Shown: one piece after another, positions 9,636 to 45,528 of the stretch
Position numbering within the stretch: position 1 is the stretch's first letter
Layout of the letters: the number at the start of each line of letters is the position of its first letter
DNA from: Opitutaceae bacterium
GTDB lineage: Bacteria > Verrucomicrobiota > Verrucomicrobiia > Opitutales > Opitutaceae
NCBI GenBank assembly: GCA_027482185.1
Contig: JAIXWF010000009.1
Coordinates: 1-64,000 of the forward strand
Length of the DNA: 64,000 nt
Direction: 5' to 3'
Program-made: the position numbers and the translations under genes
Notes under the pieces: generated by a model
Seen by the model: only the letters and a program-made list of their open reading frames with translations
Database searches by the model: none
Told to the model about the DNA's origin: nothing

Positions 9636-9665
9636 GTGGGGGAATCCACCTGCGACGGTGTCGAT
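9636..9665 (+). promoter_or_regulatory. ECF-type promoter element upstream of TBDR 1
   Basis: GTGGGGGA (9636-9643), 14 bp, GTGTCGAT (9658-9665). It points toward the TBDR whose start is about 100 bp downstream. One of nine matching bipartite elements in the polysaccharide locus. Confidence 0.55.
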
Positions 9666-9767
9666 GGCGACCCGCACTCCAACCCCGCATGCCTCGCCGA
9701 ATGGTCGGAGTCCCGAACCAGCCGGACGCGAAGCAGCGCCTATGGACGTGCCGAACATCAACGCACC

Positions 9768-12407
9768 GTGAACTACGAATCCACCCTGTTACGCACCACT
9801 ATCCGCGGTCTCGCTCTGAGCGGCTTGCTCGGCATCGCGTCCATTCGGGCGCAGACCGCGCCACTGCCTCGGTCCGGCCCACCCGAGGAGGCGCTTGTAC
9901 TCTCCACGTTTACGGTCTCCGACCGAAAAGACGTCGGCTACGAATCGATCCAGACGACGTCAGGCATGCGCACGGTGCAGGAACTTAAGAACGTGGCGAA
10001 TTCGATCTCGATCATGAATTCGCAACTCATGGAGGATCTTGCGGCGACGAATGTGGAGGAAATGTCGCGGTGGTTCGTCACCGGAGAGCAGAGCCCCGAT
10101 CCTGCGCAGCAAAACCAGTTGGTTTTTCGCGGTGTCCGCAACACCTTCGCCCTGCGCAACGGCTGGATCTGGTATTCGCCGATGGACGGCTATGCCACCG
10201 AACGCGTCGAAATTCTCCGCGGACCCAACGCATTTCTGTACGGCGAGGCGGACCTCGGCGGAGCAAACAACCAGATCACGAAACGCGGATTGTTCACGCG
10301 CAATCTGACGCGGACGAAGGTCATGCTGGGCAGCGACGATTTCCGCCGCGTCGAACTCGACCTGAACCGCCGGCTCGACGACCGGCTCGCAATCCGCATC
10401 GCTGCCGCCCAGAGCAACAACAACTCCTGGATCGACAATGTGCGGCGCGACTTCCGCGGTTTGTACGTCGCGGCGACCTACCGCCCTCTCCGGAACACGA
10501 CGCTGAGCGTGATGGCGGAACGAGCGAAGAGCACCGCCGTTATCGCCCAGGGTCTGTTCATCGAAAACTACACCTACGCCACTGCGACGGCGCTGACGAA
10601 TTCCGCCGGAGTCGTTTACCTGCCCGCGACCGGGTCCACGTACCGCGCCGCGGGCCAATTGCGGAGCAACGGCTCGGGCACGACCGCCGTGGACCGCACG
10701 ATTGCGTCCCCCTCGCTTCATCTGGCCGGCCCCACAGGTACATCGAAGAACTACTACGATTCCGTTACCCTCGAAGCCGAACAGCACGTCGGCGAATCCC
10801 TGCATTTGCTGCTCTCCGGCAATTTCTACCGCCAGCAAGTCGACAACTGGACGGCGGCGGCGTCGCGCAACATCTACCGCGATCTCTCGCCGCGTCTGCC
10901 CGACGGCGGACCCAATCCGAACTACAACCGGTTGTACTCGGAGTACTATCGGGCCCGCAATCTCAGCGGCAATACTGTCCGCGATATTCGCCTCTCCGCG
11001 GTTTACGACCTTCGCACCCCGTGGATGCTGCAACAACTCGCGGTGAACCTACAGCAGCATCAGGACAATCCGGGCCAGAAGCGGCCGAAGTACGGCGAGT
11101 ACGTCGATCCCGCCAATCCACTCTGGGTCGGTAGCATCAATCCCGCCCTCACGCAGGCCGCGTTCACCGCCAACCGGGCCGTCTTCGCCAACAATCGATT
11201 CATGCGCCGCTACTACTTCGACGGAACCGGAGCCGCCGGCGATACCTCCTCGCTCGGCCCCATCCCGGGCCTGTCCCAGTATTTCCCCGATCTTTCCAAC
11301 CTGGTGCCTGCGACCGGCAACATCTCGGAGCGCCGTTTCTACATTCCCTCCGTTGGGATCGGCGCCGCAGGCAGCTATTTCGACAAGCATCTGTTCACGC
11401 TCCTCGGCTACCGGCGCGACCATTTCAACATGAAGACCCGCGTCGGAGCTCCGCAACCGGTGCCCAATACATGGATCAATGCGGACATTCCGGGTGCCTT
11501 TTCCCCGAACCCCTCGTTTGCCAACTACAAAGTCGACGGATCCAACTACGGCTTGGTCTACCGGTACAACGACAGCCTGGCGGTTTCGTACAACCGGGCG
11601 CAGTCTTTCCGGATCTCAACGGGAGAGGGCTCGGACCTCTTCACCCGCGGGGCAAAGCAGGGAATTCCGACCGGCGAAGGCGAGGACATCTCGCTCCGCC
11701 TGACTCTCTTCGGGGGCCGCATGGAATTCAACTCGACGTGGTACAAAAACTATCAGCCGAACTCCCGATTCAATCCCGCACCGCCGATCGCGGTGCGCGA
11801 CGAGATCGGTGCCCTTTTCCCGGAAACCTTCAATTCGTCCGGCCAAGACTACCAGACCCTGACCACCAGCGGACTGGAGTTCGAGATTGTCGCGAATCTG
11901 ACCCGGCACTGGCGGCTCATGTTCAACGCTGCGACCAACGAGGTGGTGACCGAAAAGCGGGCGCCCTTGCTCCGCGGCTTCCAGGCCGAGGCCAAGGCGG
12001 CAAACCGAGCCACGCCCGAGCTCGATGCGTTCCTGCTCACGATCCCCGACGGAGTGCCGACCGCCGGGTACACCAAAACCCGGGCCAATCTCTTCACCCG
12101 CTACGAATTCAGCCGCGGGCCGTTGCGGGGAATTTACATCGGCGGCGGCGCCAATTGGAGGGAGCCTACGTTCCGCGGCAACGCGGTGCTGGTGCAGGGC
12201 GGCCCCGCGGTCGCGCTGTGGTCTCCGACCTACACGGTCGCAAGCCTGCTGGCGGGCTACCGGACCAAGGTCTTCGGCCGCACGACTGCATTCTCGGTCA
12301 ACGTAGATAACGTTTTCGACAAGGACTATTACCTGTCCGCCACAACGACCACCGGGTCGTGGGGTGCGCCCCGGTCTTTCAGACTGACGATCATAACCGA
12401 CTTCTGA
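9768..12407 (+). CDS. TonB-dependent outer-membrane receptor (TBDR 1)
   Basis: An outer-membrane active transporter of about 879 residues. After a signal peptide (LALSGLLGIASIRAQ) come a TonB-box/plug region with VQELKNVANSISIM, RGVRN and VEILRGPNAFLYGE (residues about 55-165), then a long beta-barrel ending in an aromatic residue (ITDF), as expected for barrel insertion. There is no N-terminal STN signalling domain, unlike TBDR 2. GTG 9768 was chosen because it places the signal peptide at the N-terminus; the frame is open to ATG 9636, which would add 44 unlikely residues and overlap the predicted promoter. A strong terminator follows. The substrate is probably an oligosaccharide, judging by the locus. 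Confidence 0.85.
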   Translation: MNYESTLLRTTIRGLALSGLLGIASIRAQTAPLPRSGPPEEALVLSTFTVSDRKDVGYESIQTTSGMRTVQELKNVANSISIMNSQLMEDLAATNVEEMSRWFVTGEQSPDPAQQNQLVFRGVRNTFALRNGWIWYSPMDGYATERVEILRGPNAFLYGEADLGGANNQITKRGLFTRNLTRTKVMLGSDDFRRVELDLNRRLDDRLAIRIAAAQSNNNSWIDNVRRDFRGLYVAATYRPLRNTTLSVMAERAKSTAVIAQGLFIENYTYATATALTNSAGVVYLPATGSTYRAAGQLRSNGSGTTAVDRTIASPSLHLAGPTGTSKNYYDSVTLEAEQHVGESLHLLLSGNFYRQQVDNWTAAASRNIYRDLSPRLPDGGPNPNYNRLYSEYYRARNLSGNTVRDIRLSAVYDLRTPWMLQQLAVNLQQHQDNPGQKRPKYGEYVDPANPLWVGSINPALTQAAFTANRAVFANNRFMRRYYFDGTGAAGDTSSLGPIPGLSQYFPDLSNLVPATGNISERRFYIPSVGIGAAGSYFDKHLFTLLGYRRDHFNMKTRVGAPQPVPNTWINADIPGAFSPNPSFANYKVDGSNYGLVYRYNDSLAVSYNRAQSFRISTGEGSDLFTRGAKQGIPTGEGEDISLRLTLFGGRMEFNSTWYKNYQPNSRFNPAPPIAVRDEIGALFPETFNSSGQDYQTLTTSGLEFEIVANLTRHWRLMFNAATNEVVTEKRAPLLRGFQAEAKAANRATPELDAFLLTIPDGVPTAGYTKTRANLFTRYEFSRGPLRGIYIGGGANWREPTFRGNAVLVQGGPAVALWSPTYTVASLLAGYRTKVFGRTTAFSVNVDNVFDKDYYLSATTTTGSWGAPRSFRLTIITDF

Positions 12408-12431
12408 TCCGGACCGCGCCGCGAGATTGTT

Positions 12432-12467
12432 CCCCGGGCGAAGCCTCGCTTCGCCCGGGGATTTTTC
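12432..12467 (+). terminator. Intrinsic terminator after TBDR 1
   Basis: A perfect 13-bp stem, CCCCGGGCGAAGC (12432-12444) and GCTTCGCCCGGGG (12448-12460), with a 3-nt loop and a trailing ATTTTTCT. It lies 25 bp past the TBDR stop and between convergent genes. Confidence 0.9.
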
Positions 12468-12496: not shown

Positions 12497-13897
12497 TCAG
12501 GTCGCGGCTACGGCACCCAGGCCGGGGCCGGAAATTGAAGCGGTGCCAAGCACTCCGCCCAAGACGCGGAAAATCGCCGGATGCGCCCCTTCCCAGCCGA
12601 TGCTGGCGGCAGGACAATACTGGCGGGCATTCGCTTCCACCGCCGAGACGCCGGGAACGCGCGCCGCAAGGCCGACCGAATGCACCAGGGATGCACCGGG
12701 GCACGTAAGGTCCTGCACGCAGAGGAACATTCCGAGCCGCTGGGCCGCAACGGCCATCAGGAGAGATTGGGTCTGGCCCTTGCATGCTTTCAGCGCGACG
12801 CCGGTGTATCCGAGTTCACGCGCGAGCAGGAGCGATTCGAGATCCGTGAGGGACTCGTCGATTACCACGGGTTTCAGCTGCGCAGCCGCGTGCATGCGAT
12901 TCGCGGGCGCTCGGCGAAGGTCCCGGTCCGTCGGTTGCTCAACGTATTGGATTCGGGCGAACGCCTGCGGCGCACGCTCTCGCACGCAGGCCAAGAGCGC
13001 CACGAGGTAATCGGCGTCCGGACAACGTTCGTTGAAATCGAGCGAGTAGTGCCAGGTCCGGCGGGATAGAGAGGTGAGCACTTCGCTCGCAACGCGATCG
13101 ACGCTCAGAACGCGATCGAGATCCCAAACGGCATCATCGCCGTTGAGCTTGATCTTGAAGTTGAAGATCCCGTCCCGATGGATCCATTGCCGAAGAGTTT
13201 CTGGCCAGCCGTCCTGCACCGGCGTTGCCAAGTCGCCATCGTCAAGCGGGTCGAGCGCCCCGACCAAATGGTAGAGGGGCAGGAAGGCGCGGGGCCGCTG
13301 GCGTACAAAATCCCCCAGCGACAAGCCGGAGTAGTCCCGTCCCAGATAGACAGCGAGGTCGTGCCCGAACCACTCTCTGCCGTAGGCGTCGTAGCAGTTT
13401 ATGCCGTGGACCTTGCCGAACGCGTCGTGAATCGCCGCATCAAAAGCACTGCCAGTCACGAGGGTCGCAAGTTTGGGAATCGGTTCCTCGAGTCCGAGAT
13501 CGGCTGCCACCGCCCTCGCCTCCTCCAGAAAAAGCAATTCAAGGACCGAACCGAGTTCGACCGGATGCCCGAACTCGCCCAAGCGCTCCGTCACACGACG
13601 GCAACGTTCGGCAAGTTGGCGCATTGCGGCAAGGGTCGACGGCGGTCCGAGCCGGCGCGACGGGAAAGCCCACACGTTCCCGAGGGGCATTGAACCGAAC
13701 CCTTTGGCCCAACGGCCGCGTCGATCGAGAACGTCACATTCGACCTCGAGAACCGTGATCTCTGCCACCGTCTGGCCTCCAAACTTGATCGGCGTTCGGT
13801 ATTTGAAATCACGGTACGCCGTACGGACGGCAAAAACCCGAATATCCGTTGGCCGGGCCGAGCTCACGGATGGCCGACTTTGGGGAAAGGTCATCAC
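12497..13897 (-). CDS. Enolase-superfamily enzyme (mandelate racemase / muconate lactonizing type)
   Basis: A 466-residue enolase-superfamily protein. Active-site blocks appear in the expected order: FKIKLNG with a candidate base lysine, metal-ligand strands LDFNE, VEQPT and IDES, then ALKACKGQ in the C-terminal barrel. Enzymes of this kind dehydrate or epimerise sugar acids, a sensible step for uronic or aldonic acids released by polysaccharide lyases. The exact reaction cannot be read from the sequence. It is somewhat longer than the typical 380-420 residues. The start codon overlaps the stop of the upstream sulfatase by 4 bp, so the two are probably translationally coupled. Confidence 0.8.
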   Translation of the reverse strand: MMTFPQSRPSVSSARPTDIRVFAVRTAYRDFKYRTPIKFGGQTVAEITVLEVECDVLDRRGRWAKGFGSMPLGNVWAFPSRRLGPPSTLAAMRQLAERCRRVTERLGEFGHPVELGSVLELLFLEEARAVAADLGLEEPIPKLATLVTGSAFDAAIHDAFGKVHGINCYDAYGREWFGHDLAVYLGRDYSGLSLGDFVRQRPRAFLPLYHLVGALDPLDDGDLATPVQDGWPETLRQWIHRDGIFNFKIKLNGDDAVWDLDRVLSVDRVASEVLTSLSRRTWHYSLDFNERCPDADYLVALLACVRERAPQAFARIQYVEQPTDRDLRRAPANRMHAAAQLKPVVIDESLTDLESLLLARELGYTGVALKACKGQTQSLLMAVAAQRLGMFLCVQDLTCPGASLVHSVGLAARVPGVSAVEANARQYCPAASIGWEGAHPAIFRVLGGVLGTASISGPGLGAVAAT

Positions 13898-15498
13898 GGC
13901 GCGGAAGCGGCGATGGCGTCCTTCACGGATTTGCGGCCGAGGACTGGTACGTTTTTCGGAGCGTCGACGCCGTCGCGCGGGATCTCGCGCGCGAATTGGC
14001 CGGTATCGCCGAGTTCATTTTGCAAGCGGACGATCTCGGCCTTGAGCTCGGCGATTCTGCCGGCCTCAGCTGGGTCGTCGATCAGGTTGCGCTGTTCGGA
14101 CGGATCGCTCGCGAGATCGAACAGTTCCCAAGCGTCTTTCTTCCAATAATGGATGAGTTTGTGGGTGGCGGTGCGGACGCCATAGTGGGCTCGGGTGTTG
14201 TGGTGGCCGGGGTCGTGGTAGTAGCGGTAGTAGACGGAGGTACGCCAGTCGCTGGGCGGTTGGCCGCGGAGGATCGGCACGAGGGATCGGCCGTGCATCT
14301 CGGGCGGGACGGGGACACCGGCAAGGTCGAGAAACGTAGGGGCGAAGTCGGCGTTTATGGCAAAAAGATCCGTGACGGCGCCGCTCTTTATCCCGGGACC
14401 GCGGGCGATCAGAGGAATGCGGAGGCCCGGCTCATACATGAACCGCTTGTCAAACAAGCCGTGGTCGCCGAGAAACCAACCGTTGTCGGAGCTGTAGATT
14501 ACGACGGTGTTTTGGGCGAGACCGGTTCGGTCAAGGTAATCGAGCAGGTCGCCGACGCTGTCGTCGACACCCTGCACGCAGGCCAGATAGTCCTGCATAT
14601 AGCGCTGGTATTTCCAGCGGGTGAGTTCGGCACCGGTCAGCGTTCTGATGGATCCGTCAGTCGCCGTGATTTCGACCGAGGTAGGCTTTTGGTTGAGCCA
14701 TTGCTGGCGCTGGGGTCCCGCCGGGAGGTCGTCGGGAGGGGTCAGTTTGAGATCACGGCGGGTGAGGTCGCGGGCTATCGCCTGTTTGTTCTCTGGAAGG
14801 GCCGCGGGTCTGGTGGCGTAGTCGTCCCAAAGCGTAGCAGGCTCGGGAATCACCTTGTCTTTGAAGATGGCCTTGTTCTTGGCATCCGGCTCCCAGGCGC
14901 GATGCGGTGCCTTGTGATGCAGCATGAGAAAAAACGGCCGATCCTTGGGTCTCGTATCGAGAAACTCGAAACCAAGCTGGGTGGTGACGGGGGTTGTGTG
15001 GCCGGCGAGATTGAGACGGCCTCGAGCGGTGAGGAAATCCGGGTCTTCGTAGACGCCCTGACCAGGCAGGACGATCCAGCGGTCGAAGCCGGTAGGGTCG
15101 CTGCCCAGATGCCACTTGCCGATCATGCCGGTATGGTAGCCCGCCGCCTGCAACAGTTTGGCGACGTTGGGGCGGGACCCATCGAAGGCGTTGAAGACAG
15201 GTACCCCGTTGGCGTGGGAATATTGGCCCGTGAGGAGCGTGGCGCGACTCGGGGTGCAGATGGAATTGGTGACGAAGGCGTGGCTGAAGCGGACACCGGC
15301 GCCGGCGAGGCGGTCGAGGTTCGGCGTTCGGTTGACCCTGGAGCCATAGGCGCTGATCGCGTGCTGGGCGTGGTCGTCGGAAAAGATGAAAAGAATATTG
15401 GGTCGAACCGCGGGGACTGCGGACGAGTCCGGCGCGAGTCCAAGCGCTGCGGTCGCGATTGCGCAAAGCGCGAGGAAAGTCGGGAGTCGGAGGGACAT
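13894..15498 (-). CDS. S1-family sulfatase 1 (Cys type)
   Basis: An exported sulfatase of 534 residues. The N-terminus is a signal peptide (LPTFLALCAIATAALGLA), and mature sequence begins near PNILFIFSDDH, whose paired Asp residues bind calcium. The formylglycine motif is C81-T-P-S-R. Later blocks HKAPHRAWEP and YSSDNGWFLGDHG supply further metal and sulfate-binding residues. The length fits the S1 family. ATG 15498 was chosen because the signal peptide starts there; the frame is open to 15828. The enolase-superfamily gene follows with a 4-bp overlap. Activity requires formylglycine conversion by an enzyme not encoded in this window. Confidence 0.9.
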   Translation of the reverse strand: MSLRLPTFLALCAIATAALGLAPDSSAVPAVRPNILFIFSDDHAQHAISAYGSRVNRTPNLDRLAGAGVRFSHAFVTNSICTPSRATLLTGQYSHANGVPVFNAFDGSRPNVAKLLQAAGYHTGMIGKWHLGSDPTGFDRWIVLPGQGVYEDPDFLTARGRLNLAGHTTPVTTQLGFEFLDTRPKDRPFFLMLHHKAPHRAWEPDAKNKAIFKDKVIPEPATLWDDYATRPAALPENKQAIARDLTRRDLKLTPPDDLPAGPQRQQWLNQKPTSVEITATDGSIRTLTGAELTRWKYQRYMQDYLACVQGVDDSVGDLLDYLDRTGLAQNTVVIYSSDNGWFLGDHGLFDKRFMYEPGLRIPLIARGPGIKSGAVTDLFAINADFAPTFLDLAGVPVPPEMHGRSLVPILRGQPPSDWRTSVYYRYYHDPGHHNTRAHYGVRTATHKLIHYWKKDAWELFDLASDPSEQRNLIDDPAEAGRIAELKAEIVRLQNELGDTGQFAREIPRDGVDAPKNVPVLGRKSVKDAIAASAP

Positions 15499-15853
15499 GG
15501 GGGTCAAGAATGACTGAGGACTGCAAGTTGAACGGCAGGTATCACGGTTCGCCGCCGGTGCGGGCCGGCAATGGGCAGCGCCGAAATGCCGGTCAGCGAA
15601 CCAATCGACTGTGCATGTCTTTCGGATCGCAACTGCGCCGGGCTCGAGCGGCGCGGAAGAACACGGCTCGGCTGATTCGGTGCGGCAAAAACCAACCGCC
15701 CGCACGGACCGGGCGTGCGATGGGGTAGCTGCATTCGCCTTTGGAGCACGGATCGGAAACAAAGACACGGGGTTCTCCCCAAAAACAGAAGAGCTCTCCG
15801 GCGACCAAATTGAGGAAGAGGCAAACATGGTTTCTCCGGTCCGATGGATTGCG
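15499..15853. other. Intergenic region between MFS and sulfatase 1 genes
   Basis: 355 bp between two same-strand genes. No recognisable gene, terminator or copy of the (T/G)TGGGGGA element is seen. Confidence 0.4.
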
Positions 15854-17116
15854 TCACTCCGGCAAAGCCCGCCCCTTCGTTTCCGGGGCGAACCAAATGG
15901 CCGCCATGCCGGCGAAGTAGACGAGGACGATGGTCGCGCCGGCCCGGGCGTAGCTGTGGTCGAACCAAGCCATGATCGCCCCCATGTGCCAGGTGCCGAA
16001 TGCGGCGGCTAGGCGGCCGGAGTTGTAGGCGACCCCTTGTCCTGTGGCCCGCACCCGCGTCGGGAAGAGCTCCGGCAGGTACTGCGGCAACCAGCCGTAG
16101 AAGGCACCAGTCAGGCCGCCGACAACGAAGACCATCGCAAGAAACCGGGCGTCGAAAACTTCGAAACCGCGAAAGAACGCCGTGCACGCGCCCCATGCCG
16201 CCAGACAGAGGACGAAGTAAACGGGTCGGCGGCCAAAGCGACCGCCCGCAAGCGGCGCCAGCAAGCACGCGACAGTCGCTCCGGCACAGGATGCGACCTG
16301 AATGTAGGCCTTCACCTCCGGACGCTTGCCTCCGGTAAGCTGGTCCGCCCAGAGCGGAATCCACTGCACTATGCCCCAGGTAACCGTGAGGGCTACGGCC
16401 GAGAAGAGGATCGCGAGCAGGGTATTCCGGAGCAAGGCGCCCGAAAACACCGCCCGAAGCGGGTTCTCGGCCCGCGGCTCCCTCGCGGCGTTTCGCCACG
16501 ACTCGGACTCCGGGACGTAGCGCATGATAAAGAGCGCGAGCAATGCCGGCAGGGCTCCAACCAACATCACCCAGCGCCACGAATCGGTTGTGATGCGAAA
16601 GAAGATGCCGAGAACCCCGACCAGAACGTAGCCCACGTTGGCGGCCGCGCCGATCAGCCCAGCCATCAGCGGCCGCTTTTCCGCCGGCCAAGCCTCCATC
16701 ACCAAAGCGACACCAAGCGACCACTCCCCGCCCATTCCCAACGCGGCGACGAACCGAAAGAGTGCAAGGTGCCACGGCGCCTCGGCAAAATAGTTGAGGC
16801 CGGTGAAAAGCGAATAGGCCAGCACGCTGAGCACCATCGCACGCACGCGACCGATGCGGTCGCCGAGCCAACCAAACAGCAGGCCGCCGGCGGCAGCCCC
16901 GAGCAGGAAACTCGCGGTGATGCGCCCCATCCAAAGTTGGATGAAGGCCTCGTCGAGGCTGCCGGATATCTGCCCGAATTCCTGCAGGGCCGGTCTGGCA
17001 ACGAGCGGGAAGATGCCCATCTCAAGGCCGTCGAACATCCAGCCAAGGAAGGCCGCGACGAGCGTCATGGTCCTCGCCCTCCGGAGGGCTGATGAGGAGT
17101 CGGCGGATTGGTTCAT
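15854..17116 (-). CDS. Major facilitator superfamily transporter
   Basis: A 420-residue inner-membrane carrier with about twelve hydrophobic segments. The N-terminal stretch FLGWMFDGLEMGIFPLVARPAL is typical of the sugar-acid and organic-acid MFS branch. The loop between helices 2 and 3 carries the MFS signature as GWLGDRIGRVRA, and its mirror appears later as GGRFGRRP. It probably imports a monosaccharide, uronate or similar product of the neighbouring degradative enzymes. Transport mode and substrate are inferred from family and context only. It lies upstream of sulfatase 1 on the same strand, separated by 355 bp. Confidence 0.88.
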   Translation of the reverse strand: MNQSADSSSALRRARTMTLVAAFLGWMFDGLEMGIFPLVARPALQEFGQISGSLDEAFIQLWMGRITASFLLGAAAGGLLFGWLGDRIGRVRAMVLSVLAYSLFTGLNYFAEAPWHLALFRFVAALGMGGEWSLGVALVMEAWPAEKRPLMAGLIGAAANVGYVLVGVLGIFFRITTDSWRWVMLVGALPALLALFIMRYVPESESWRNAAREPRAENPLRAVFSGALLRNTLLAILFSAVALTVTWGIVQWIPLWADQLTGGKRPEVKAYIQVASCAGATVACLLAPLAGGRFGRRPVYFVLCLAAWGACTAFFRGFEVFDARFLAMVFVVGGLTGAFYGWLPQYLPELFPTRVRATGQGVAYNSGRLAAAFGTWHMGAIMAWFDHSYARAGATIVLVYFAGMAAIWFAPETKGRALPE

Positions 17117-17224
17117 ATAAAAGGATGGCTGAGGATGGACCCAGTTGGGGCGGGCACGGCGGAGCCGCTACACCCCTGGAAGTGGGGCGATACAGCTGCG
17201 GCAAGAACGGCTTCCCCGGTCGGG

Positions 17225-18895: not shown

Positions 18896-18925
18896 TCCGA
18901 CGCCGCGCGCGGACAATTCCCCCAA
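18896..18925 (-). promoter_or_regulatory. ECF-type promoter element upstream of sulfatase 2
   Basis: On the minus strand: TTGGGGGA (18925-18918), 14 bp, GCGTCGGA (18903-18896), about 55 bp before ATG 18841. It shares its layout with eight other elements in the locus. Confidence 0.55.
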
Positions 18926-18949
18926 AGCGAGTTTCGCGATCGGGTCAAG

Positions 18950-36956: not shown

Positions 36957-39900
36957 TCAGAATTTCACCGTCGTCGACCACACGTACAGGCGCGGCTGCG
37001 CGTCGAACGTCGCGTTGTTCGGACCGGACCAGCCGTTCAGATAGTTCGGCAGCGCCACGACCCGGTAGTGATTCAGCAGATTGCTCACGTTGACCTGGGT
37101 CGTGATCGGAAACCGGCCCAGTTTGAATTCATAGGCCGCGATGCCCGTTACGGTGACGAGATCCGGGAAAGAGAAGAGATCCCGATGGTTTGGCTGCGCG
37201 ATTGTTTTCGGGTAATAATAGTAGGAGCTGTTGCCCCATTTTGCGACCGCGGTGCCGCCCAGCCGCAGGCCCTTCAGGACACCGCGCGGAAAAGTGTACA
37301 TCGCGGTCAGATTCGCGCTGTAGCGGGCAAACCCGACACCCTTTTCGCCCGCGTTCATGACCGTGATGGTGCCGGGCGGCGGGGCCTGCGGATCCGGCGC
37401 AACCTGCATGGCCGAGATCGGCAAGCCCACCGCCCCGGTCAGGATGGGTCCGCGGACGGGATCGACCGTGCGCAGAATCGTCGCCAGCGCGGAATTGGGG
37501 TTGATCGCGCCGGCTACCGGCACCGGGTTCGCGAAGTAGCGATTGGCCGGATCGTTCATCATATCCAGCGTGAGCGGCACCGCCCCGGGAGTACCCGCGT
37601 CGGCCACCCGGGTCGCGGTGGTAAGCACGTGAACCGGAGTGCCATCGCGGTAGGTCGCCTGCCGCTGCGCATTCGCGTAGAACTGATCGTTGTAGAGCTG
37701 CGCGAAGCTCTTGCCGGTGGTCAGCGTGGCATCGATCGCCGCGGCCGAGAAACGGAGTCGCCACGCTCGGCTGGGCGCCGCCGTGAGCAGCAGCTGCACG
37801 CCGCGCGAGATGCGGTCGGCATTCACACTGTTGTTGGGCACCCCTACCCGTCCGTTCAACCCGGGGTAGTTGATGTCGCTGGTCACCGCGGTGGGATTGC
37901 CGATCACCTCGTTCTTGGCCCGGGTGCGGAAGACTCCGATGGAACCGGATACGGCGCCTCCGGCGGAACCGAACTTGAGACCGGCTTCCTCGCCGATGCC
38001 GCTCGAGATCTTGACGAAGTTCCCGTAAGGATCGGTGCCGGAATTGCTGGGCGGAACGTAGTTGCTCGAGGTCTGAAGGTAGGCGTTCAACCAAGGCCGC
38101 ACGGCATAGCTGAGGCCGGCGTTGAAGCCGGTGTATTTGACCACCACTTCGTCCCGATTGCTCGGCGTCGCGGTCGCGTTGACCTTGCGGCCCAGATAGG
38201 CGCGGCCCACCCGCACGCCGCCCAAGGTGCTGAGACGGCCGTCGAACCAGTCGGTGAAATTGGCGAAATAGGTGCCGCCCTGCAGATCGGCGGTTTCGGA
38301 TGTGCCGCCGGCCCCGGTGCCGGTGAGGCCAAGGGGATTGCCGGGGCCGATCCGCGAAGGATCCGACGCGTTGGTATCCTGCCGGACATAGTTGACGCCG
38401 TTGTAGGTAACCCGGTCGTCGTACCGGTTCCACAAAGGCGTTTGCACCGGACCGTCGGCAACCGGCCAAAAGACGGTTGGAATCAGCGTGTAGCCGTTGT
38501 TGGCGGCCAAGCCCGTCTTCACGGGATTGAAGTTCCCGTCGGCGAGCACGAAGTTCAGTGTGTGGCTGGAGTTGTCGGTGCGGGTGAAGTCGACCCCGGC
38601 GATAGTGCGGCTGCGGGCGCGTCCGCCGAAAAACGCATTCGTCGCGAGGACGGAGAAGCGGCCGACCTTCTGCCGGACGGGCCGGGAAATCGCGGACGTA
38701 AGGCCGTTCGCCCCGCTGACGGCCCAAGTGCCCAACGGATTGGCGCCGGCGTTGGGCGCATAGAACGTGATGCCGGCGTTGCCGACCTTGCGCACGTCTT
38801 CCGTGCGGTAACCGGCGCTGGCCTGGGAAGACAGCCACGAGTTCCAGCGGCTCTCGACCGTGAGTGTATGCAGTGTGTGACGCTGGAATTCGCCGTACAT
38901 GCCTCCGGCGAGAGCATCGACGTTGTCCCAATCCAGTTTGCCCCCGAGAATGGGGCCCGCGCCGCTGGCGCCGGCGGCGGCCGTCACTTGGTTCGTCGCC
39001 AACAGCCACTTCAGGTTCTGGCGGTTCCGCACGTCGTTCGCCGAACTGAGCGCGGTGAGGGTCGTCGCGTTGCTGATGGGATTGATCCGGTCGAATACGG
39101 TCTTGTCGAGTGAGTACCGAATCACGGTGCCGGGCAAGGGCTTGAACGCCACCTGCAGGTAACCGCCGTGGAGCGGGCCGCCGATCATCACCCGACGCCC
39201 GCCGAGCGACTGGTTGAGGAGCGCGAGACGGACGGCGAAGCGCCGAGTTCCGGCGCCGTAGTCAAGCAGCCCCATCTTGTTGCCGTGCTGGTCGACCTGA
39301 TACTTGAATGATCCATTGGCGGCCCGGTCGAAATTCGCCTGCTTCAGAATCGTGTTCACCACGCCGCCGCTGCCGCTGACGCCGTAGAGCAGCGACTGGG
39401 GGCCGCTGACGACCTCGACCCGCTCGGTATTGTGGAGGCTGGTGATTCCGGTGGCGTTTGCACCGCCGCCGCCCATCGGAAAGAAGCCGTTGACCTGCAG
39501 GGAAGGCGCCGAAAGACCGCGGATCGAAAGCGTCCCGGCGTTGCGGTCGAGATACTGGTTGTTGCCGGCGTAGCTGTCGGCGCTCCCGGCCGCAAAACCG
39601 GCACCCGCCGAGAAATTCTGCACCACTTCCTCCATGGTATTCAGTCCGGCGTCGGCGAGGAATGTCTCGCCGAAGACGTCCGCGGTGATCGGCAACTTCT
39701 GGAGCTCCGCGCTGAAGGCCGTGACCGAATTCGAGGTCGCGGCTCCGTAGCTTTTGTCGCTGCCGGTGGTGACCTCGAAGGGATTCAACAGAAGGGGATC
39801 GGCGGAACGGGTGGCCGGGGCCGGAGTCTGGCCGGATAGAACGGCATGGAACGACAGGAACGCGGCGAGGGCCGAACCGGCGCGGGTCCGGACCGGCACG

Positions 39901-39959
39901 CGTCCGGAAACACCGCCGCCCAAAGTACGCCCGGATGTGGGGTGAATGCAGGGGAACAT
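36957..39959 (-). CDS. TonB-dependent receptor without STN domain (TBDR 3)
   Basis: An outer-membrane receptor of up to 1000 residues. The plug contains TLSIRGLSAPSLQVNGFFP and VEVVSGPQSLLYGVSGSGG, and the C-terminal barrel ends WSTTVKF. It is a paralogue of TBDR 2: long barrel stretches such as NSALATILRTVDPVRGPILT align closely. It lacks the STN domain, so it probably transports without signalling. ATG 39959 is the frame start. However, the predicted promoter -10 ends only 5 bp upstream of it, and GTG 39899 places a clean signal peptide (RAGSALAAFLSFHAVLSG) at the N-terminus, so the shorter start deserves preference. The ECF sigma gene follows 33 bp downstream. Confidence 0.87.
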   Translation of the reverse strand: MFPCIHPTSGRTLGGGVSGRVPVRTRAGSALAAFLSFHAVLSGQTPAPATRSADPLLLNPFEVTTGSDKSYGAATSNSVTAFSAELQKLPITADVFGETFLADAGLNTMEEVVQNFSAGAGFAAGSADSYAGNNQYLDRNAGTLSIRGLSAPSLQVNGFFPMGGGGANATGITSLHNTERVEVVSGPQSLLYGVSGSGGVVNTILKQANFDRAANGSFKYQVDQHGNKMGLLDYGAGTRRFAVRLALLNQSLGGRRVMIGGPLHGGYLQVAFKPLPGTVIRYSLDKTVFDRINPISNATTLTALSSANDVRNRQNLKWLLATNQVTAAAGASGAGPILGGKLDWDNVDALAGGMYGEFQRHTLHTLTVESRWNSWLSSQASAGYRTEDVRKVGNAGITFYAPNAGANPLGTWAVSGANGLTSAISRPVRQKVGRFSVLATNAFFGGRARSRTIAGVDFTRTDNSSHTLNFVLADGNFNPVKTGLAANNGYTLIPTVFWPVADGPVQTPLWNRYDDRVTYNGVNYVRQDTNASDPSRIGPGNPLGLTGTGAGGTSETADLQGGTYFANFTDWFDGRLSTLGGVRVGRAYLGRKVNATATPSNRDEVVVKYTGFNAGLSYAVRPWLNAYLQTSSNYVPPSNSGTDPYGNFVKISSGIGEEAGLKFGSAGGAVSGSIGVFRTRAKNEVIGNPTAVTSDINYPGLNGRVGVPNNSVNADRISRGVQLLLTAAPSRAWRLRFSAAAIDATLTTGKSFAQLYNDQFYANAQRQATYRDGTPVHVLTTATRVADAGTPGAVPLTLDMMNDPANRYFANPVPVAGAINPNSALATILRTVDPVRGPILTGAVGLPISAMQVAPDPQAPPPGTITVMNAGEKGVGFARYSANLTAMYTFPRGVLKGLRLGGTAVAKWGNSSYYYYPKTIAQPNHRDLFSFPDLVTVTGIAAYEFKLGRFPITTQVNVSNLLNHYRVVALPNYLNGWSGPNNATFDAQPRLYVWSTTVKF

Positions 39960-39964
39960 GACCT

Positions 39965-39994
39965 ACCGAAACCGCATCCCCGAAAATCCCCCAA
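39965..39994 (-). promoter_or_regulatory. ECF-type promoter element upstream of TBDR 3
   Basis: On the minus strand: TTGGGGGA (39994-39987), 14 bp, GTTTCGGT (39972-39965). It ends 5 bp before ATG 39959, which favours a downstream start at GTG 39899 or a leaderless message. Confidence 0.5.
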
Positions 39995-40029: not shown

Positions 40030-42633
40030 TCAAATCCGGCGCAACGAGAACTCGAGGCTGCGCGCATCCGCGCAAGGCACCCGGATACGCGTCCGACCGC
40101 CGTCGAGTTCTGCCACGACGCCGGCGGCGGCGTCACCCACGGCCCAGCGGCCCATGACGGTCAGCGTTACGGGAGTCGGCACCGCCTCCATCGGCGGCAC
40201 GTCGGAGCCATGCCCGCGACCGCGATACTGGCGCCCCTGCTCCCAGCGGAGATCCGGGTGGCATACGCTGACCTTGAGCTCGTCGGCGCCGATAGAACGC
40301 GCCATCACGAGACACGGCGCACTGGCCCGGTCGAGAAAGTCGCCGCCGAGAGATACTTCGGGCTGCGCGACCGCCCAGCCCGTGATTCCAAGCCGACGAT
40401 GGGTGACGATGTGGGCAACATCGTCGCGGCGCTCCACCGTATACTCTTGCGCCGCCCGGGCGGCAAAATCCGCCAGCTTCTTTTCTCCGGAGCCGACCAA
40501 AATGACATATTCCGCGCCGGATCCGTCCGGTTCGTTGCCGTGATCGATCCACGCCGAAGCGAAGGCACCCTTCGTTTCCTTCAGTCCGGAGCGGTCGCGC
40601 GAGTGCTGCTCGCGCCGCGTCACGACCACCCGTTGGCCGGGAGGCACAAAGTAGCCGTTGCCCGCAGGGTCGACGAGTCGTGCGGCCGAATCGTTGAATA
40701 CCGTGGGCTGCTCGTTCAGGCCGGTCAGCTGCCGCCCCTGGGCAAATGTCGGTTCATCGGCGTCGCGCAGCGCGGTCTGGAACAGCGTGGTCGTCACGGT
40801 GTGTTTTCCGTCGCCATCGCGAATTCCGGAAGCAAGCACCACGATCTGGTCGTCGAAGAAGAACGCCGTTTTGAGGGCGCGCAGCGGCCGCTCCCGCCGG
40901 TCGGGCGCGGCTTCCCGGTAGTCCAAGGCGAACAATCCATGGTTTCCTTCAAGTGCCACGCCGCCGACAAAGGTCGCGTCGCTGAATGGACGGTTGAACC
41001 CGCTGCCGCCCGTATCCATGGCCAGCAGTTCCGCGGCGGGAATGTACCGGGTCGTCGTCCCGGGGATGCGGCTCCAGTCCCAACCGTCGCGCGCGTAGCC
41101 GCTGTCGTGGGCGTTCACCCACGGCACGCCTCGATTGTGGATGTAGAGACTCCCCGAACCATCATGGAAACCGAAGACATTCTCCCGGTTGGGATCCAGC
41201 CGAGCATCCGACAATTGGCGTTCAAACGCCCACCAGTAGCGACTGTAACCCTTGATCGAGACCATCCAGTTGTCCCGCCGGTGCACGGCCAGCGGACCGT
41301 AGTTGAAAGCCCAGTGCCCCTGCGGGTCGGCTTCCGCCCCGACTTGGCGGGCTGCCGCGAGCACGCGGAGAAATTCCGCCACTGCGCCGGGACCGGGCGG
41401 CACTTCGTTGCGATGCCCGGCGAACGGCCGGAGGGCGAGCGGGCTCGCCAGAAACGCCTCGTCCGCCAATCGGGCCAGCATTCCCTGGAATTCCCGCTGC
41501 CGCGGATGCGGCAGGTCCGCGAGACAGGCGAAGCCCAGCATCACGTCGGGAATGACCGCGATCGACTGCAACCTCCCGGACAGGGCCCGGTGCATGTCGT
41601 ACTTGTGCGCCACCACCCGCAAGGTCGCCAAACCCTTGGCCACCGCCGCGACCGTCACCGGCGCGGACGCAAAGCGTGTTCCCCGCCAAAGCCACGCGGC
41701 GAACGCGGCCTCCGCCATCGTGTACGACGCGTATCCGCCGAGATACACCGCATTGTGATGGTGGCCGAGTCCGTCGGGCTTGATCGTATCATAGGTGTTC
41801 GACTCGGGCAGCATGGAGCGGTCGATCTGCGCGGAGAGCCGCTGCAGCCGGGCGGCGTCGCCGGCGGCGAGCGCCGCAGGCAGCGTCAGATTCAGCACGA
41901 CGCGGACCGCATCGGCCTGCAGAAACGGCGCGCGCAGGTCGCCCGTTTTCTCGCCGTGTCCCTCGATCTCCCAGCAGGTCGCCAGCGCCCGGTCGAATTG
42001 CCCGGCCGCGCGGAGTTCCTCGCGCATCAGGAGGGTGGCGAGGGCATATCCCGACATCCGGAGATTGAAGTCCACGATCAGCGCCTGATCCGCCGCAGGG
42101 TTGGGTACTTGCGCCGGCTTCCACGGGAGCTGCATCGGCGCCCTGAATCCGCGGCGGTGGAGCCGCTCGAAAACGGAGAGCACGGTCTCACGCAGAGCCG
42201 GGTCCCGGTAATAGGGGTTGGGTTCGGCGTGAGATCCGGGCAGGTGGTACGCGATGCTCAACGAAGGCAGCGCATCCGTAATGAGCATCCGGAGCTCGGC
42301 GTCGTCGGGACCGCGCCGCAGGGTGTTGTAAAGCCGCGGGTTTTCCTCGCGAAAGGGAACGTTCGCGATGCGCTGCAGCGCCCGGCGCGCATCGGTGACG
42401 ACCTGACGGGCCCGCGCGGAAACCAGCGGCGCGGGAGACGGGCCCGCATCGCCCGCGAGCACCCATCCGAGATAACGCGCCCTGACGACGTCCAGATCGT
42501 CGTCGGGAGCCGCCGGGCGCGCAACGTACGGCACCGCGAACAGGATCACGGCCAAGGCCCTGACGACAGGGCTCGAACGGGAAACGAGCCACCCGGAGGC
42601 GGCGGAGAACAACCGAAAGATCGAATGGGACAT
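40030..42633 (-). CDS. PL8-like polysaccharide lyase (chondroitinase/hyaluronate lyase superfamily)
   Basis: An 867-residue exported lyase. The signal region (ALAVILFAVPYVARPA) precedes an alpha/alpha-toroid (about 45-400) and a beta-sandwich half. The catalytic signature of PL8 enzymes, a His followed by a Tyr seven to nine residues later, is visible as HHHNAVYLGGYASYTM (H291-H293, Y301). KGYSRYWWAFER and FHDGSGSLYIHNRG further match chondroitin lyases. The expected reaction is beta-elimination of uronate-containing glycosaminoglycan-like chains. ATG 42633 was chosen because the predicted promoter -10 covers 42658-42665, overlapping the longer start at 42663. It is probably periplasmic or surface-attached. 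The exact substrate is unproven. Confidence 0.85.
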   Translation of the reverse strand: MSHSIFRLFSAASGWLVSRSSPVVRALAVILFAVPYVARPAAPDDDLDVVRARYLGWVLAGDAGPSPAPLVSARARQVVTDARRALQRIANVPFREENPRLYNTLRRGPDDAELRMLITDALPSLSIAYHLPGSHAEPNPYYRDPALRETVLSVFERLHRRGFRAPMQLPWKPAQVPNPAADQALIVDFNLRMSGYALATLLMREELRAAGQFDRALATCWEIEGHGEKTGDLRAPFLQADAVRVVLNLTLPAALAAGDAARLQRLSAQIDRSMLPESNTYDTIKPDGLGHHHNAVYLGGYASYTMAEAAFAAWLWRGTRFASAPVTVAAVAKGLATLRVVAHKYDMHRALSGRLQSIAVIPDVMLGFACLADLPHPRQREFQGMLARLADEAFLASPLALRPFAGHRNEVPPGPGAVAEFLRVLAAARQVGAEADPQGHWAFNYGPLAVHRRDNWMVSIKGYSRYWWAFERQLSDARLDPNRENVFGFHDGSGSLYIHNRGVPWVNAHDSGYARDGWDWSRIPGTTTRYIPAAELLAMDTGGSGFNRPFSDATFVGGVALEGNHGLFALDYREAAPDRRERPLRALKTAFFFDDQIVVLASGIRDGDGKHTVTTTLFQTALRDADEPTFAQGRQLTGLNEQPTVFNDSAARLVDPAGNGYFVPPGQRVVVTRREQHSRDRSGLKETKGAFASAWIDHGNEPDGSGAEYVILVGSGEKKLADFAARAAQEYTVERRDDVAHIVTHRRLGITGWAVAQPEVSLGGDFLDRASAPCLVMARSIGADELKVSVCHPDLRWEQGRQYRGRGHGSDVPPMEAVPTPVTLTVMGRWAVGDAAAGVVAELDGGRTRIRVPCADARSLEFSLRRI

Positions 42634-42657: not shown

Positions 42658-42688
42658 TATCAAACCCGCGGCGGCTTGTTTCCCCCAA
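42658..42688 (-). promoter_or_regulatory. ECF-type promoter element upstream of the PL8 lyase
   Basis: On the minus strand: TTGGGGGA (42688-42681), 15 bp, GTTTGATA (42665-42658), 24 nt before ATG 42633. Its sequence resembles the element at 45498-45528 beyond the two core boxes. Confidence 0.55.
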
Positions 42689-42720: not shown

Positions 42721-45369
42721 TCAGCGCAGCGACCTGAGGTACATGACCAAAGACTCCACTTGCGTTTCGGTAACGGCACCGGCGTAGCTGGGCATCGCAT
42801 ACTCGCCGCGCTCGAAACCCGCGACCTTTTTTGCGGTGGGATCGAGAATCGATTCCCTGAGGTAGGTTTCGTCCGCGATCACGACGCCGGTCTGCCGGTC
42901 CGCTCCCACATAGCTGCGTTCCGATCCGTACAGTCCCCTCCACTTCGGGCCGATCCGGGTCTGGTCCTGATCCTGCAACGAGTGGCAAGCCACGCACCCA
43001 AGCACCTGGGCGAGCCGCCGGCCCTCGTCCGCCGATGCGGCAGGCTCGGTCCGGGCCACCGCCGTCCGCGGGGCAAGCGACACCTGCATCGGCGCGAATC
43101 CCTCGCGCTCAGGGTCAAACGCGACCAGCGCGTGCGGCGTGGTGTACGCGTTGCCGTCCAGCGGTGCGCCCGTCTCGCTGCGGATCGACCAACCGATCCG
43201 CAATTGCATCACCGGCCCAAGGCCCCTCGCCCCCACAAAGACCTTCCGTCGGTCCCGTGACACGTAGGCACTGGTCGTCTGCAGCCAGTCGACGCCGGTC
43301 GTGCCATCCGCGCGGTATTGGGCCGAACCATAGGCCGGGGTGCGGCGGTAGCTCCAGGAGGCGAGCGAGAAGTTGGCTGGATCCGTGCCGGACCGAACAT
43401 CGACCGGCACATCGAAGGCCAAGAGGACACCTTCGGTCATCGGCACAACTTCCCGTGGCGCCACCACCGGTCTGCCCGTGTACCGGACCCGCCCCAGCCC
43501 GGCGAGGGTATCGAGAACATTTCCCCAGCCGAGCACCTGGAAGCCGGCCACGTAAAGCTGCCCGTCCGCAGGATTCACGGCGCCGCGGAGCGGCGTGAAA
43601 TCGAGGTCCGTCGTCAAACTGGTCACCGCGGCCTGGAGGCGGCCCGCGCGTTCGTTCAACAGGACCCGGAGCAATTCGGGGCGATTGAAGCAGATCTGCA
43701 CCATTTCGCCGTCAATCGGGCCGAGCCGCGAATCCAGCAGCCACACCTGCGATACCGCCGACGCGTTGACGGCGTGCGGCATCCACGTCAACGGCTCCGC
43801 GATCGGCGCCGGGTATTGGCCGCGGGGCCGCTTCTCGCTGAGGTAACCGTAAAACTGGCCGTCGCTGACAACATGGAGCGGCGTACTCGGCACATAGTGC
43901 CCTTCCTGGTCGCTCGCGGTAACGAGCCCGGTGCGGGGATTCACGCCCAGGTTGGGCTGCCGAAATCCGTAACCGAGGATCGACGCGCTCCGGCCGTCGG
44001 GCGCCACTCGCAGCACCGAGCCATTGTGTTTGCCCAAGGTCGTGGCCTCTTGGCCGCCCTTTGCGATATAGAATTCCCCCTCCGGACCGCAGCGAAGCGT
44101 ACTCGCGAATTCGCGATTGTCCGCCGTTTGCGCAAAGGCGTTGGCGAAGAGCTCATGCACCTCGGCCTCTCCGTTGCGATCGGCATCGAGCAGACGCCAG
44201 ATGCCGTTGCGATCGAAGACAAAGATTTCGTCGTTTCTCAGTGCGACAGACATCGGTTCATGGAGCCCGGAGGCGAATCTGCGCCAGTGGACCGGACCGC
44301 GGTCGCGGTGCAGACCGCTCGCCAGCCAGACATCGCCGTCCACCGTGACGCCCACTCCAGTCCCATCGCCGCGAAACTGGATATCGCTCAACCGCACCGC
44401 CCGGCGCCACGGATTTTCATCCGGTAGCCCGATGCGATCGACCACGTAGGCGCCATCGGCACGCGATGGTACCGCGAGGGTTTCAACCGTCTGCGGCCAG
44501 CGTGCCATCGGCTCCGGCACGGACGCGGGCTCCATCGGCACCACCGGCGGTACAGCCGATTCCCCGAGGGCGAGCACCACGGTAACCGCCCGAGACCTCG
44601 CCGGAATCCGTACCCACCAGACACCGTCGGCAAGGAGCAGCGTAGCCGGATCGCCGCCCGGGCCGGTGCCGATGGCGATTCCTGCCTTTCGTCCTGCCGC
44701 ATCCGGGACACCGGGCGCCCCGGCGACCAACCAAAGGTCCCCGCTGGCCGGCCCGATCTCGAGCCGCCGCAGGAAAACGGGCGCACCCGCGGTAGAACTT
44801 CCGGTCCAGGACTCGCATACCTCGGTGCCGGCGACCCGATAGACGAGGCGCACACCGCGACCATCGATTCGCAACGCCTCGAACCGCCCTGCGTCCGGAT
44901 TGATCGGTCCGCGCCCCACTTCCTCGGCACTCGGTGCCGGCTCGCGCGGATCGACCAGAGGGCCGCGGTGGTCCGCGTGCCAGCCGGGATAGATCCCGTT
45001 CACCCACCATACCCGCCCAACAGGCTGGGGCGCTGGAAACTGACCGGCGGGCGTTTTGCGCGCCGGATCGTGATAGGATCCGTAGGCCAGCGATCGATCG
45101 GTTACCCCGGCCCCGCGCCAAACGGCCGCGACTCGCAGCAGGTCGGGATCGAAACAGACGAAGCCGTCGTCCGGAAGTTTGAGAACAATTCCCCGCGGCG
45201 TGAGATTGGCCGCTGCAATTCCGGGCAAACGGGCATCAAGAACCGAAGAGAAGAAGGGAAAATCAGGCTCCAACCAAGCCCCCCAGCGCGCAGGCTGAGT
45301 TGCCCCCGCAGCAGCGTGGGCGCCACCAAGTGCGGCGAGGATACAAGCGCGGAACAGTAGTCGTATCAT
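42721..45369 (-). CDS. Exported DUF6797/PVC-type dehydrogenase with C-terminal cytochrome c domain
   Basis: An 882-residue exported protein. A signal peptide (LFRACILAALGGAHAAAGA) precedes a DUF6797-like N-terminal region (about 25-290). A beta-propeller resembling glucose/sorbosone dehydrogenases follows (about 320-690, with DRNGIWRLLDADRNGEAEVHEL). A class I cytochrome c domain lies at the C-terminus, where C-V-A-C-H binds haem and EYAMPSYAG supplies the distal Met. The pattern fits a periplasmic sugar-oxidising dehydrogenase passing electrons to its own haem. ATG 45369 exposes the signal peptide; the frame is open to 45531. It is divergent from the GH43-like gene, with back-to-back predicted promoters between them. 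Confidence 0.85.
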   Translation of the reverse strand: MIRLLFRACILAALGGAHAAAGATQPARWGAWLEPDFPFFSSVLDARLPGIAAANLTPRGIVLKLPDDGFVCFDPDLLRVAAVWRGAGVTDRSLAYGSYHDPARKTPAGQFPAPQPVGRVWWVNGIYPGWHADHRGPLVDPREPAPSAEEVGRGPINPDAGRFEALRIDGRGVRLVYRVAGTEVCESWTGSSTAGAPVFLRRLEIGPASGDLWLVAGAPGVPDAAGRKAGIAIGTGPGGDPATLLLADGVWWVRIPARSRAVTVVLALGESAVPPVVPMEPASVPEPMARWPQTVETLAVPSRADGAYVVDRIGLPDENPWRRAVRLSDIQFRGDGTGVGVTVDGDVWLASGLHRDRGPVHWRRFASGLHEPMSVALRNDEIFVFDRNGIWRLLDADRNGEAEVHELFANAFAQTADNREFASTLRCGPEGEFYIAKGGQEATTLGKHNGSVLRVAPDGRSASILGYGFRQPNLGVNPRTGLVTASDQEGHYVPSTPLHVVSDGQFYGYLSEKRPRGQYPAPIAEPLTWMPHAVNASAVSQVWLLDSRLGPIDGEMVQICFNRPELLRVLLNERAGRLQAAVTSLTTDLDFTPLRGAVNPADGQLYVAGFQVLGWGNVLDTLAGLGRVRYTGRPVVAPREVVPMTEGVLLAFDVPVDVRSGTDPANFSLASWSYRRTPAYGSAQYRADGTTGVDWLQTTSAYVSRDRRKVFVGARGLGPVMQLRIGWSIRSETGAPLDGNAYTTPHALVAFDPEREGFAPMQVSLAPRTAVARTEPAASADEGRRLAQVLGCVACHSLQDQDQTRIGPKWRGLYGSERSYVGADRQTGVVIADETYLRESILDPTAKKVAGFERGEYAMPSYAGAVTETQVESLVMYLRSLR

Positions 45370-45443
45370 TGGATGTTTCCGGTCGGGCGGAACCGCGCAC
45401 AAACCCGAAAACAAGAAGAGCAACGGCCCGCCGCCCGGCTGAA

Positions 45444-45473
45444 ATCGACGCGCAGGCCGGCCGCATCCCCCAC
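45444..45473 (-). promoter_or_regulatory. ECF-type promoter element upstream of the DUF6797 gene
   Basis: On the minus strand: GTGGGGGA (45473-45466), 14 bp, GCGTCGAT (45451-45444), about 75 nt before ATG 45369. The -10 half matches TBDR 1 in seven of eight positions. Confidence 0.55.
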
Positions 45474-45497
45474 GCAAATCCGACATTCCAATCTGAA

Positions 45498-45528
45498 TTG
45501 GGGGAACAGCCCGCGCCGGGGTTCGAAT
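45498..45528 (+). promoter_or_regulatory. ECF-type promoter element upstream of the GH43-like gene
   Basis: TTGGGGGA (45498-45505), 15 bp, GTTCGAAT (45521-45528), 20 nt before ATG 45549. It stands back to back with the element at 45444-45473. Confidence 0.55.

Follow-up and report, generated by a model that had tools for sequence, protein, structure and literature searches.

Nine predicted ECF sigma factor promoters in a polysaccharide locus of an Opitutaceae bacterium

In the ferric citrate system of Escherichia coli (FecI/FecR/FecA), an extracytoplasmic function (ECF) sigma factor, an anti-sigma factor with a FecR domain and a TonB-dependent receptor bearing an STN signalling domain are encoded in a row, with an ECF-type promoter before the receptor gene. 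The same gene row, with a predicted promoter, is present in the DNA described here, the first 64,000 bases (the window) of the 72-kb contig JAIXWF010000009.1 from the 6.43-Mb genome of an Opitutaceae bacterium (assembly GCA_027482185.1), in which nine copies of a two-box element lie between positions 9636 and 45528. Unlike in the E. coli system, the neighbouring genes encode sulfatases and lyases and not iron uptake, and whereas very few FecI promoters are known, nine are predicted in the window.

The FecI-like groups ECF05–10 are described as not autoregulating (PMC3817407), whereas the sigma gene of the window is itself part of the regulon predicted for its product. On the same ground, a main promoter-mapping study did not cover the six FecI-like ECF subgroups (PMC3817407), and their promoter code is therefore less well mapped. 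According to the excerpt of PMC12596196, nearly half of the 50 ECF sigma factors of Bacteroides thetaiotaomicron are found in glycan loci, and a distant sigma factor, SigW-1, controls the sulfatase-bearing part of a locus. The present locus resembles the polysaccharide utilization loci of Bacteroides in carrying an ECF sigma factor among glycan genes, but it belongs to another phylum, no member of the SusD family was found among its 21 called genes scanned with Pfam, and its sigma factor falls below the cut-off of the Bacteroides expansion family TIGR02985 (89.1 bits, cut-off 126.4). The boxes differ as well, being TTGGGGGA and GN(G/T)TCG in the window against the TGTT-type -10 mentioned in the same excerpt (PMC12596196). 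Freshwater Verrucomicrobia likewise carry TonB receptors beside glycan-degrading enzymes (PMC5615132), but the words sigma and FecR are absent from the main text of that paper. For FecI-like promoters of Verrucomicrobiota, no paper was found in an open-access library, as judged by title and start of abstract. ECF/FecR control of TonB receptors and ECF sigma factors in Bacteroides glycan loci are already known; what differs here is a private GGGGGA -35 box, its spread over nine starts, and the predicted autoregulation in a FecI/FecR-type system.

Nine two-box elements and their placement

The nine elements are very probably the -35/-10 promoters of the ECF sigma factor encoded in the locus (36219–36923), serving a single FecI/FecR-type regulon with the sigma operon among its members. 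All nine copies of NTGGGGGA-N14/15-GN(G/T)T were recovered by pattern search and matrix scan, in the orientation and at the places given by an earlier reading of the letters of the window (the sequence-only reading), which cites each minus-strand element by the lower coordinate of its 30–31 bp:

9636–9665, plus strand: predicted promoter copy 1, GTGGGGGA-N14-GTGTCGAT, heading the TonB-dependent receptor gene 9768–12407
18896–18925, minus strand: predicted promoter copy 2, TTGGGGGA-N14-GCGTCGGA, heading genes for a sulfatase (17225–18841), a major facilitator superfamily (MFS) transporter (15854–17068), a sulfatase (13894–15498) and an enolase-like protein (12497–13690, below the Pfam cut-off)
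18950–18979, plus strand: predicted promoter copy 3, TTGGGGGA-N14-GTGTTTAC with a weak -10 box, heading genes for a sulfatase (18986–20485) and a heparinase II/III-like protein (20482–23232)
30317–30346, minus strand: predicted promoter copy 4, TTGGGGGA-N14-GTTTCCTA, heading genes for a Gfo/Idh/MocA protein (28886–30271), a 6-phosphogluconolactonase/glucosamine isomerase-like protein (28071), a second Gfo/Idh/MocA protein (27017), a 3-keto-disaccharide hydrolase (25707) and a symporter (23788)
35158–35188, minus strand: predicted promoter copy 5, CTGGGGGA-N15-GTGTCGAG, between fecR and the STN-type receptor gene, heading genes for this receptor (31887–35138) and a sulfatase (30382–31857)
39965–39994, minus strand: predicted promoter copy 6 (predicted feedback promoter), TTGGGGGA-N14-GTTTCGGT, heading genes for a receptor (36957–39959, or 39899), the sigma factor (36219–36923) and FecR (35209–36222)
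42658–42688, minus strand: predicted promoter copy 7, TTGGGGGA-N15-GTTTGATA with a weak -10 box, heading the polysaccharide lyase 8 gene (40030–42633, or 42651)
45444–45473, minus strand: predicted promoter copy 8, GTGGGGGA-N14-GCGTCGAT, heading a gene for a DUF6797/DUF7133/cytochrome c protein (42721–45369)
45498–45527, plus strand: predicted promoter copy 9, TTGGGGGA-N14-GGTTCGAA, heading genes for a GH43-like protein (45549–46694, below the Pfam cut-off) and a ThuA/GDSL/DUF7133/cytochrome c protein (46814–51130)

The spacer, claimed to be 14–16 nt, measures 14 nt in seven elements and 15 nt in two (35187 and 42687), and that at 42687 can alternatively be read as N14 when shifted by one base. 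The second box holds (G/T)TC in seven of the nine and lacks it at 18951 (GTGTTTAC) and 42687 (GTTTGATA); where it is present, GGGGGA and (G/T)TC are 16–17 nt apart. For the M. tuberculosis sigma-H, a -35 GGAACA and a -10 GTT with an optimum of 17 bp are reported in the excerpt of PMC6411747. When the nine sites were aligned with that of the relative L030 (see below), one row being out of register through its 15-nt spacer, TGGGGGA was invariant, as was the G that opens the second box, and a T three bases past that G was found in at least 90% of the rows, with little further conservation. Both divergent pairs (18918–18957 and 45466–45505) have their TGGGGGA boxes back to back, 26 nt apart, in identical geometry and with dissimilar sequence between them; this geometry may be due to chance or to a helical-phase requirement.

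Taken by itself, the heptamer TGGGGGA shows no clear enrichment (13 occurrences in the window, about 14 being estimated from base composition), as would be expected if the elements were chance matches picked selectively from G-rich intergenic DNA. TTGGGGGA alone occurs six times against 2.14 expected, a count reached by 2 of 100 shuffles. In contrast, the paired pattern TGGGGGAN{14,15}GNKT gave 11 rows in the window against 0.52 +/- 0.70, with a maximum of 3 in 100 shuffles; these rows represent ten distinct places, namely the nine elements and 36776(+). Across the genome, of which the window makes up 1%, all four matches to TTGGGGGAN{14,15}GNKTC are in the window (reversed-pattern control, run like the following ones over the whole genome, 2), as are six of the seven matches to TGGGGGAN{14,15}GNKTCG (control 3) and six of the eight distinct places (nine rows) matching TTGGGGGAN{14,15}GNKT (control 2). 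With wider spacing, TGGGGGAN{14,18}GTCGA, this number was three of seven (control 1), and the four matches outside have spacers of 14, 15, 15 and 18, not 16–17. A matrix built from the nine sites scored each of them at 18.1 or more; nine places in the window reach 18, against one (18.4) in 700,015 bases taken from elsewhere in the genome. Leave-one-out matrices gave scores of 13.2–20.6, with at least 17 for six of the nine, on a background of 30 places scoring 13 or more in 700 kb (2.7 per 64 kb). To the question of whether the motif is equally frequent elsewhere in the genome, the answer is that the pair is nearly confined to the window. Based on this confinement and on the excess over shuffles, chance was ruled out; together with the recurrence in L030, they leave it practically no probability.

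The stretch from 9.7 to 51.1 kb holds 21 called genes, arranged in five same-strand runs (9768–12407, plus; 12497–18841, minus; 18986–23232, plus; 23788–45369, minus; 45549–51130, plus). All five runs are headed by a site and the other four sites (30346, 35188, 39994 and 42688) are inside the 12-gene minus run, so that every one of the 21 called genes is downstream of a same-strand site; read-through within runs, with the gene rows as operons, is assumed here. The intergenic position claimed for all nine elements holds once gene starts are re-chosen by eye. Three sites had fallen within genes that the gene caller began too far upstream (start 9636, and start 19180 covering both 18924 and 18951), and these starts, together with start 35285 of the open reading frame list, were replaced by starts before signal peptides or the STN domain; the chosen starts 45369, 45549 and 18986 compare with 44508, 45603 and 19085 of the caller. 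From the end of the -10 box to a usable start codon we measured 5–102 nt, close to the 5–105 bp proposed earlier. A scan for sigma-70-type promoters over 35–45.7 kb, which contains five of the nine sites, gave one site against 1.3 expected and none at these starts.

Sigma factor, STN receptor and the relative L030

The sigma factor and FecR that the sequence-only reading had placed at 35.2–36.9 kb were both recovered above the Pfam cut-offs, next to a receptor gene:

36219–36923, minus strand: ECF sigma factor with regions 2 and 4, presumed -35-reading helix EKTVENHSLLALQRC
35209–36222, minus strand: FecR-type anti-sigma factor/signal relay (Pfam)
31887–35138, minus strand: TonB-dependent receptor with an STN signalling domain at about residues 26–107 (Pfam STN match below cut-off)

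The sigma factor matches Sigma70_r2 (6e-14), Sigma70_r4_2 (5.7e-16) and the ECF superfamily model TIGR02937 of NCBIfam (91.2 bits, cut-off 42.9), and it scores below the cut-offs of the E. coli FecI equivalog NF041727 (67.4 bits, cut-off 260) and of the Rhodopirellula/Verrucomicrobium family TIGR02989 (68.3 bits, cut-off 124.55). The FecR protein matches FecR (5.2e-18) and FecR_C (6.1e-6), and 4 nt are shared between its gene and the sigma gene. Upstream, 33 nt separate the preceding receptor gene from the sigma start, and a terminator scan found none between them. The element at 35188–35158 provides, at the level of sequence, the promoter expected before the STN-type receptor gene.

We infer recognition of the elements by this sigma factor, an STN–FecR relay, a glycan as the signal, and behavior as one regulon. 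A glycan fragment would be bound by the STN-type receptor (31887–35138), whose periplasmic STN domain would signal to FecR; FecR would free or activate the sigma factor, and RNA polymerase would start at the nine promoters. As the predicted promoter at 39994–39965 stands ahead of the receptor–sigma–fecR row, positive feedback would result. The output would comprise receptors, lyases of the PL8 and heparinase II/III-like types, four sulfatases, and transport and sugar-processing genes, and one surface receptor could turn on the whole gene set.

In a scan of species genomes, 262 encoded a relative of the sigma factor, and the best 80 of these relatives are mostly from metagenome-assembled genomes (MAGs) of Opitutaceae/Opitutae, which places the window in or near Opitutaceae (Verrucomicrobiota). 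The closest sigma factor outside the genome, 66% identical, is that of L030, a locus on a 6.2-kb contig of the Opitutae MAG RH-23may17-1042, where a rhamnosidase C-terminus, sigma, fecR and STN receptor follow each other and an unassigned open reading frame is also present. Its fecR/receptor junction carries TTGGGGGA-N14-GGTTCC right after fecR, 53 nt ahead of the receptor ATG. In the 10.3-Mb L030 genome the strict pattern has two matches, both on the 6.2-kb contig (control 4), and the looser pattern adds six places elsewhere, which is control level (8 matches, control 8). Alignment of region 4 shows the helix EKTVENHSL(L/I)ALQRC to be common to the window and L030 sigma factors, and we take it, by its position in structures of other ECF sigma factors, to be the helix that reads the -35 box. 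We assigned the STN domain of the window receptor on its 70.7% identity over 82 residues to that of the L030 receptor, which itself passes the cut-off (34.0 bits); the next best identity among the 38 loci compared is 58.7%. The rest of the receptor is 27.5% identical and the visible neighbors differ. Conservation is thus highest for signalling domain, sigma helix and promoter, and not for the cargo. A strong motif copy is also present inside the L030 sigma gene, at 1010–1039 (+), about 250 nt before fecR; it may be an internal promoter or a chance match.

A fixed upstream element before every unit would also suit a conventional activator acting at all nine starts, and two candidates, an AraC-type (5703–6707) and a ROK (7592–9019) regulator, flank the locus. 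We consider this unlikely, as the boxes are 14–15 nt apart beside the start, the first G-rich and the second GTC-like, and as the same box recurs at the fecR/receptor junction of L030, with no regulator among the neighbors within its 6.2-kb contig. Moreover, other sigma helix classes pair with other boxes at this junction, as described below.

Helix classes and promoter boxes

ENHS was found in no further ECF entry of 160 compared (some duplicates, and L110 being the window's own gene). When 372 genomes from the order were queried with region 4, scoring at most 17 candidates per genome, four other matches were obtained at E <= 1e-17, with 60–66% identity over the 59-residue query. In a first set of 97 fecR–receptor junctions, 90 without duplicates, we counted boxes in the 65 whose spacer measures 45 nt or more. 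TGGGGGA was present in both junctions with the ENHS helix and in none of the 63 others. TTACGG was found in all nine members of the TVEKQ/A class, eight times as TTACGG(C/G/T), a form missing from the 56 others; TTAGTG in 4/4 of the TVSAQLTIG class (1/61 otherwise); and (A/G)CGGAAA in 5/7 of the TVEAQG class (2/58 otherwise). A second set, derived from 60 ECF places of relatives, was reduced by six duplicates and five places without usable fecR to 49, of which 45 reached the same spacer length. It held no ENHS or TVEKQ member, and TGGGGGA was absent from all 45. TTAGTG was present in two of three members of class D (TVSAQL, slightly wider definition) and in none of 42 others, while (A/G)CGGAAA gave a weak signal (2/6 in class C against 4/39 in others), three of the four misses having no receptor start cut. 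By eye, TVQVQ goes with TAACAGATT-like boxes, TVEVQVANG with TAATGGAAA and TVEVQVARG with GTAAGGGATTT, a pairing that recurs in L153. In a rank test of 51 systems (1232 pairs), helix identity and spacer similarity showed a partial correlation of 0.12 when the remainder of the protein was controlled for, a value reached by 1 of 2000 permutations; overall relatedness aside, helix and spacer show a small but non-random association. The promoter reading is in this way upheld by the near-confinement of the pair, by the same box at the L030 junction with a common helix, by other boxes with other helix classes (weaker in the second set), and by the ECF-like spacing.

The genome of the window has 18 FecR matches and at least 14 sigma matches at E <= 1e-30, and some cross-talk between ECF sigma factors is described in the excerpt of PMC3817407, so the promoters might be read by another of these sigma factors. 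This is very improbable in view of the near-confinement of the box to the present locus, the recurrence of the same box with the same helix in L030, and the other boxes that several paralogue junctions hold when inspected by eye (ACGGAAA in L148 and L152, TTACGGC in L149, GCGGAAA in L150). In L150 (contig C17), the closest in-genome sigma paralogue (55%), the box TTAGCGGAAT/TTAGCGGAAA at 886–915 and 2568–2597 precedes both the sigma gene and the receptor gene, which suggests that this system is autoregulated too.

De novo dyad and 7-mer discovery, a weak method, gave no separation from shuffles at the genome's remaining FecR loci; on the window, TGGGGGA only shared the top 7-mer rank with CGATCCG (7/25 upstream regions) and no dyad stood out. 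Seeds chosen by eye from nine other junctions showed no clear excess of copies within 12–54 kb, in a weak test whose loose matching gave 16 window hits against 8.05 expected while missing two of the nine sites, and in which five of the nine seeds (L142, L145, L146, L149 and L153) failed to recover their own junction.

We tentatively propose, as a view with somewhat less than an even chance of being right, that FecI-like sigma factors form a large family in Opitutaceae and that each of them has a promoter 'colour' of its own that can be read at the fecR–receptor junction and predicted from the helix. The cassette of STN domain, sigma helix and promoter would be kept while the receptor barrel and enzyme cargo are swapped between glycans, and it could spread its promoter over a 41-kb locus. 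The proposed code pairs ENHS with TTGGGGGA, STVEKQ with TTACGG, TVSAQLTIG with TTAGTG, TVEAQG with (A/G)CGGAAA, and perhaps TVQVQ with TAACAGATT. Nine predicted promoter copies and the box–helix pairs of relatives at a fixed junction make the -35 code of the group directly testable, and the finding also predicts, on sequence alone, the verrucomicrobial glycan-locus genes that respond together.

Several observations count against the assignment of the nine elements to the locus sigma factor. The match at 36776(+) is within the sigma gene, on the opposite strand, and one of the two strict matches of L030 is likewise within its sigma gene. The -10 boxes are weak at two of the nine sites, and the three lowest leave-one-out scores (13.2, 14.2 and 14.9) overlap the background. 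At 39994, 18950 and 42688 the first ATG is just 5–6 nt past the -10 box, which implies that the true start is farther down or that the message is leaderless. The STN match of the window receptor reaches 18.7 bits (cut-off 28.4), and FecR, 47.6% identical to that of L030 against 44.9% to that of the paralogue L152, does not stand out. The same helix and box recur in one independent relative only, TVENH alone does not predict the box (0/4 Chitinophaga systems), and the helix–box link is correlational, with classes named after the data were seen.

High-scoring matches in L057 and L065 were rejected as copies of the same promoter, being located in a conserved leader that precedes ECF genes carrying another helix. 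A conserved element of ~80 nt, roughly GACGCA..GTTTCGGGTTATC..AAATAGTTTCC..GCCGAAAATGC.CTCGAC, is found upstream of FecI-like ECF genes in Opitutaceae. Its strict pattern occurs in 12 of 110 ECF entries (L031, L034, L040, L042, L043, L046, L052, L054, L059, L060, L079 and L146), L146, from the same genome as the window, carrying it in shortened form. Rfam gave no match in L042 and L046, and nothing at gathering score in six sources.

Locus content and neighboring genes

Pfam assigned to the 21 genes three TonB receptors, four sulfatases, a PL8 lyase, a heparinase II/III-like lyase, two Gfo/Idh/MocA oxidoreductases, a 3-keto-disaccharide hydrolase, a symporter, an MFS transporter, two cytochrome-c/DUF7133 proteins, a weakly GH43-like protein, the ECF sigma factor and FecR. 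The regulon had been described as receptors, lyases, sulfatases and dehydrogenases. The last term fits only the Gfo/Idh/MocA oxidoreductases; behind two other heads are cytochrome-c/DUF7133-type and GH43-like proteins. The two lyases are:

40030–42633, minus strand: polysaccharide lyase family 8, nearest solved relative a chondroitinase (2q1f, 2.8e-50)
20482–23232, plus strand: heparinase II/III-like lyase, nearest solved relative 6lja (4.4e-81)

Judging by these relatives, the first a chondroitinase and the second a heparinase II/III-like enzyme, the locus probably acts on a sulfated polysaccharide resembling glycosaminoglycans. The open reading frame 27775–29133, which overlaps called genes in another frame, gave an empty Pfam scan. 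A further element was noted as a weak tenth candidate and is not counted as established:

15753–15783, minus strand: TTTGGGGA-N15-GTTTCCGA, 284 nt upstream of the start (15498) of sulfatase 13894–15498, in a ~356-nt gap after the MFS gene

Genes for an AraC-type regulator, a PIG-L deacetylase and a weakly ROK-like protein (5703–9019, minus strand) adjoin the locus without the motif in front, and they may serve an amino-sugar step. On the other side, 57503–63992 (plus strand) holds CRISPR type I-E-like genes (Cas3, Cse1, Cse2 and CT1975), and a RhuM-family protein is encoded between these and the glycan locus (53483–54127, minus strand).

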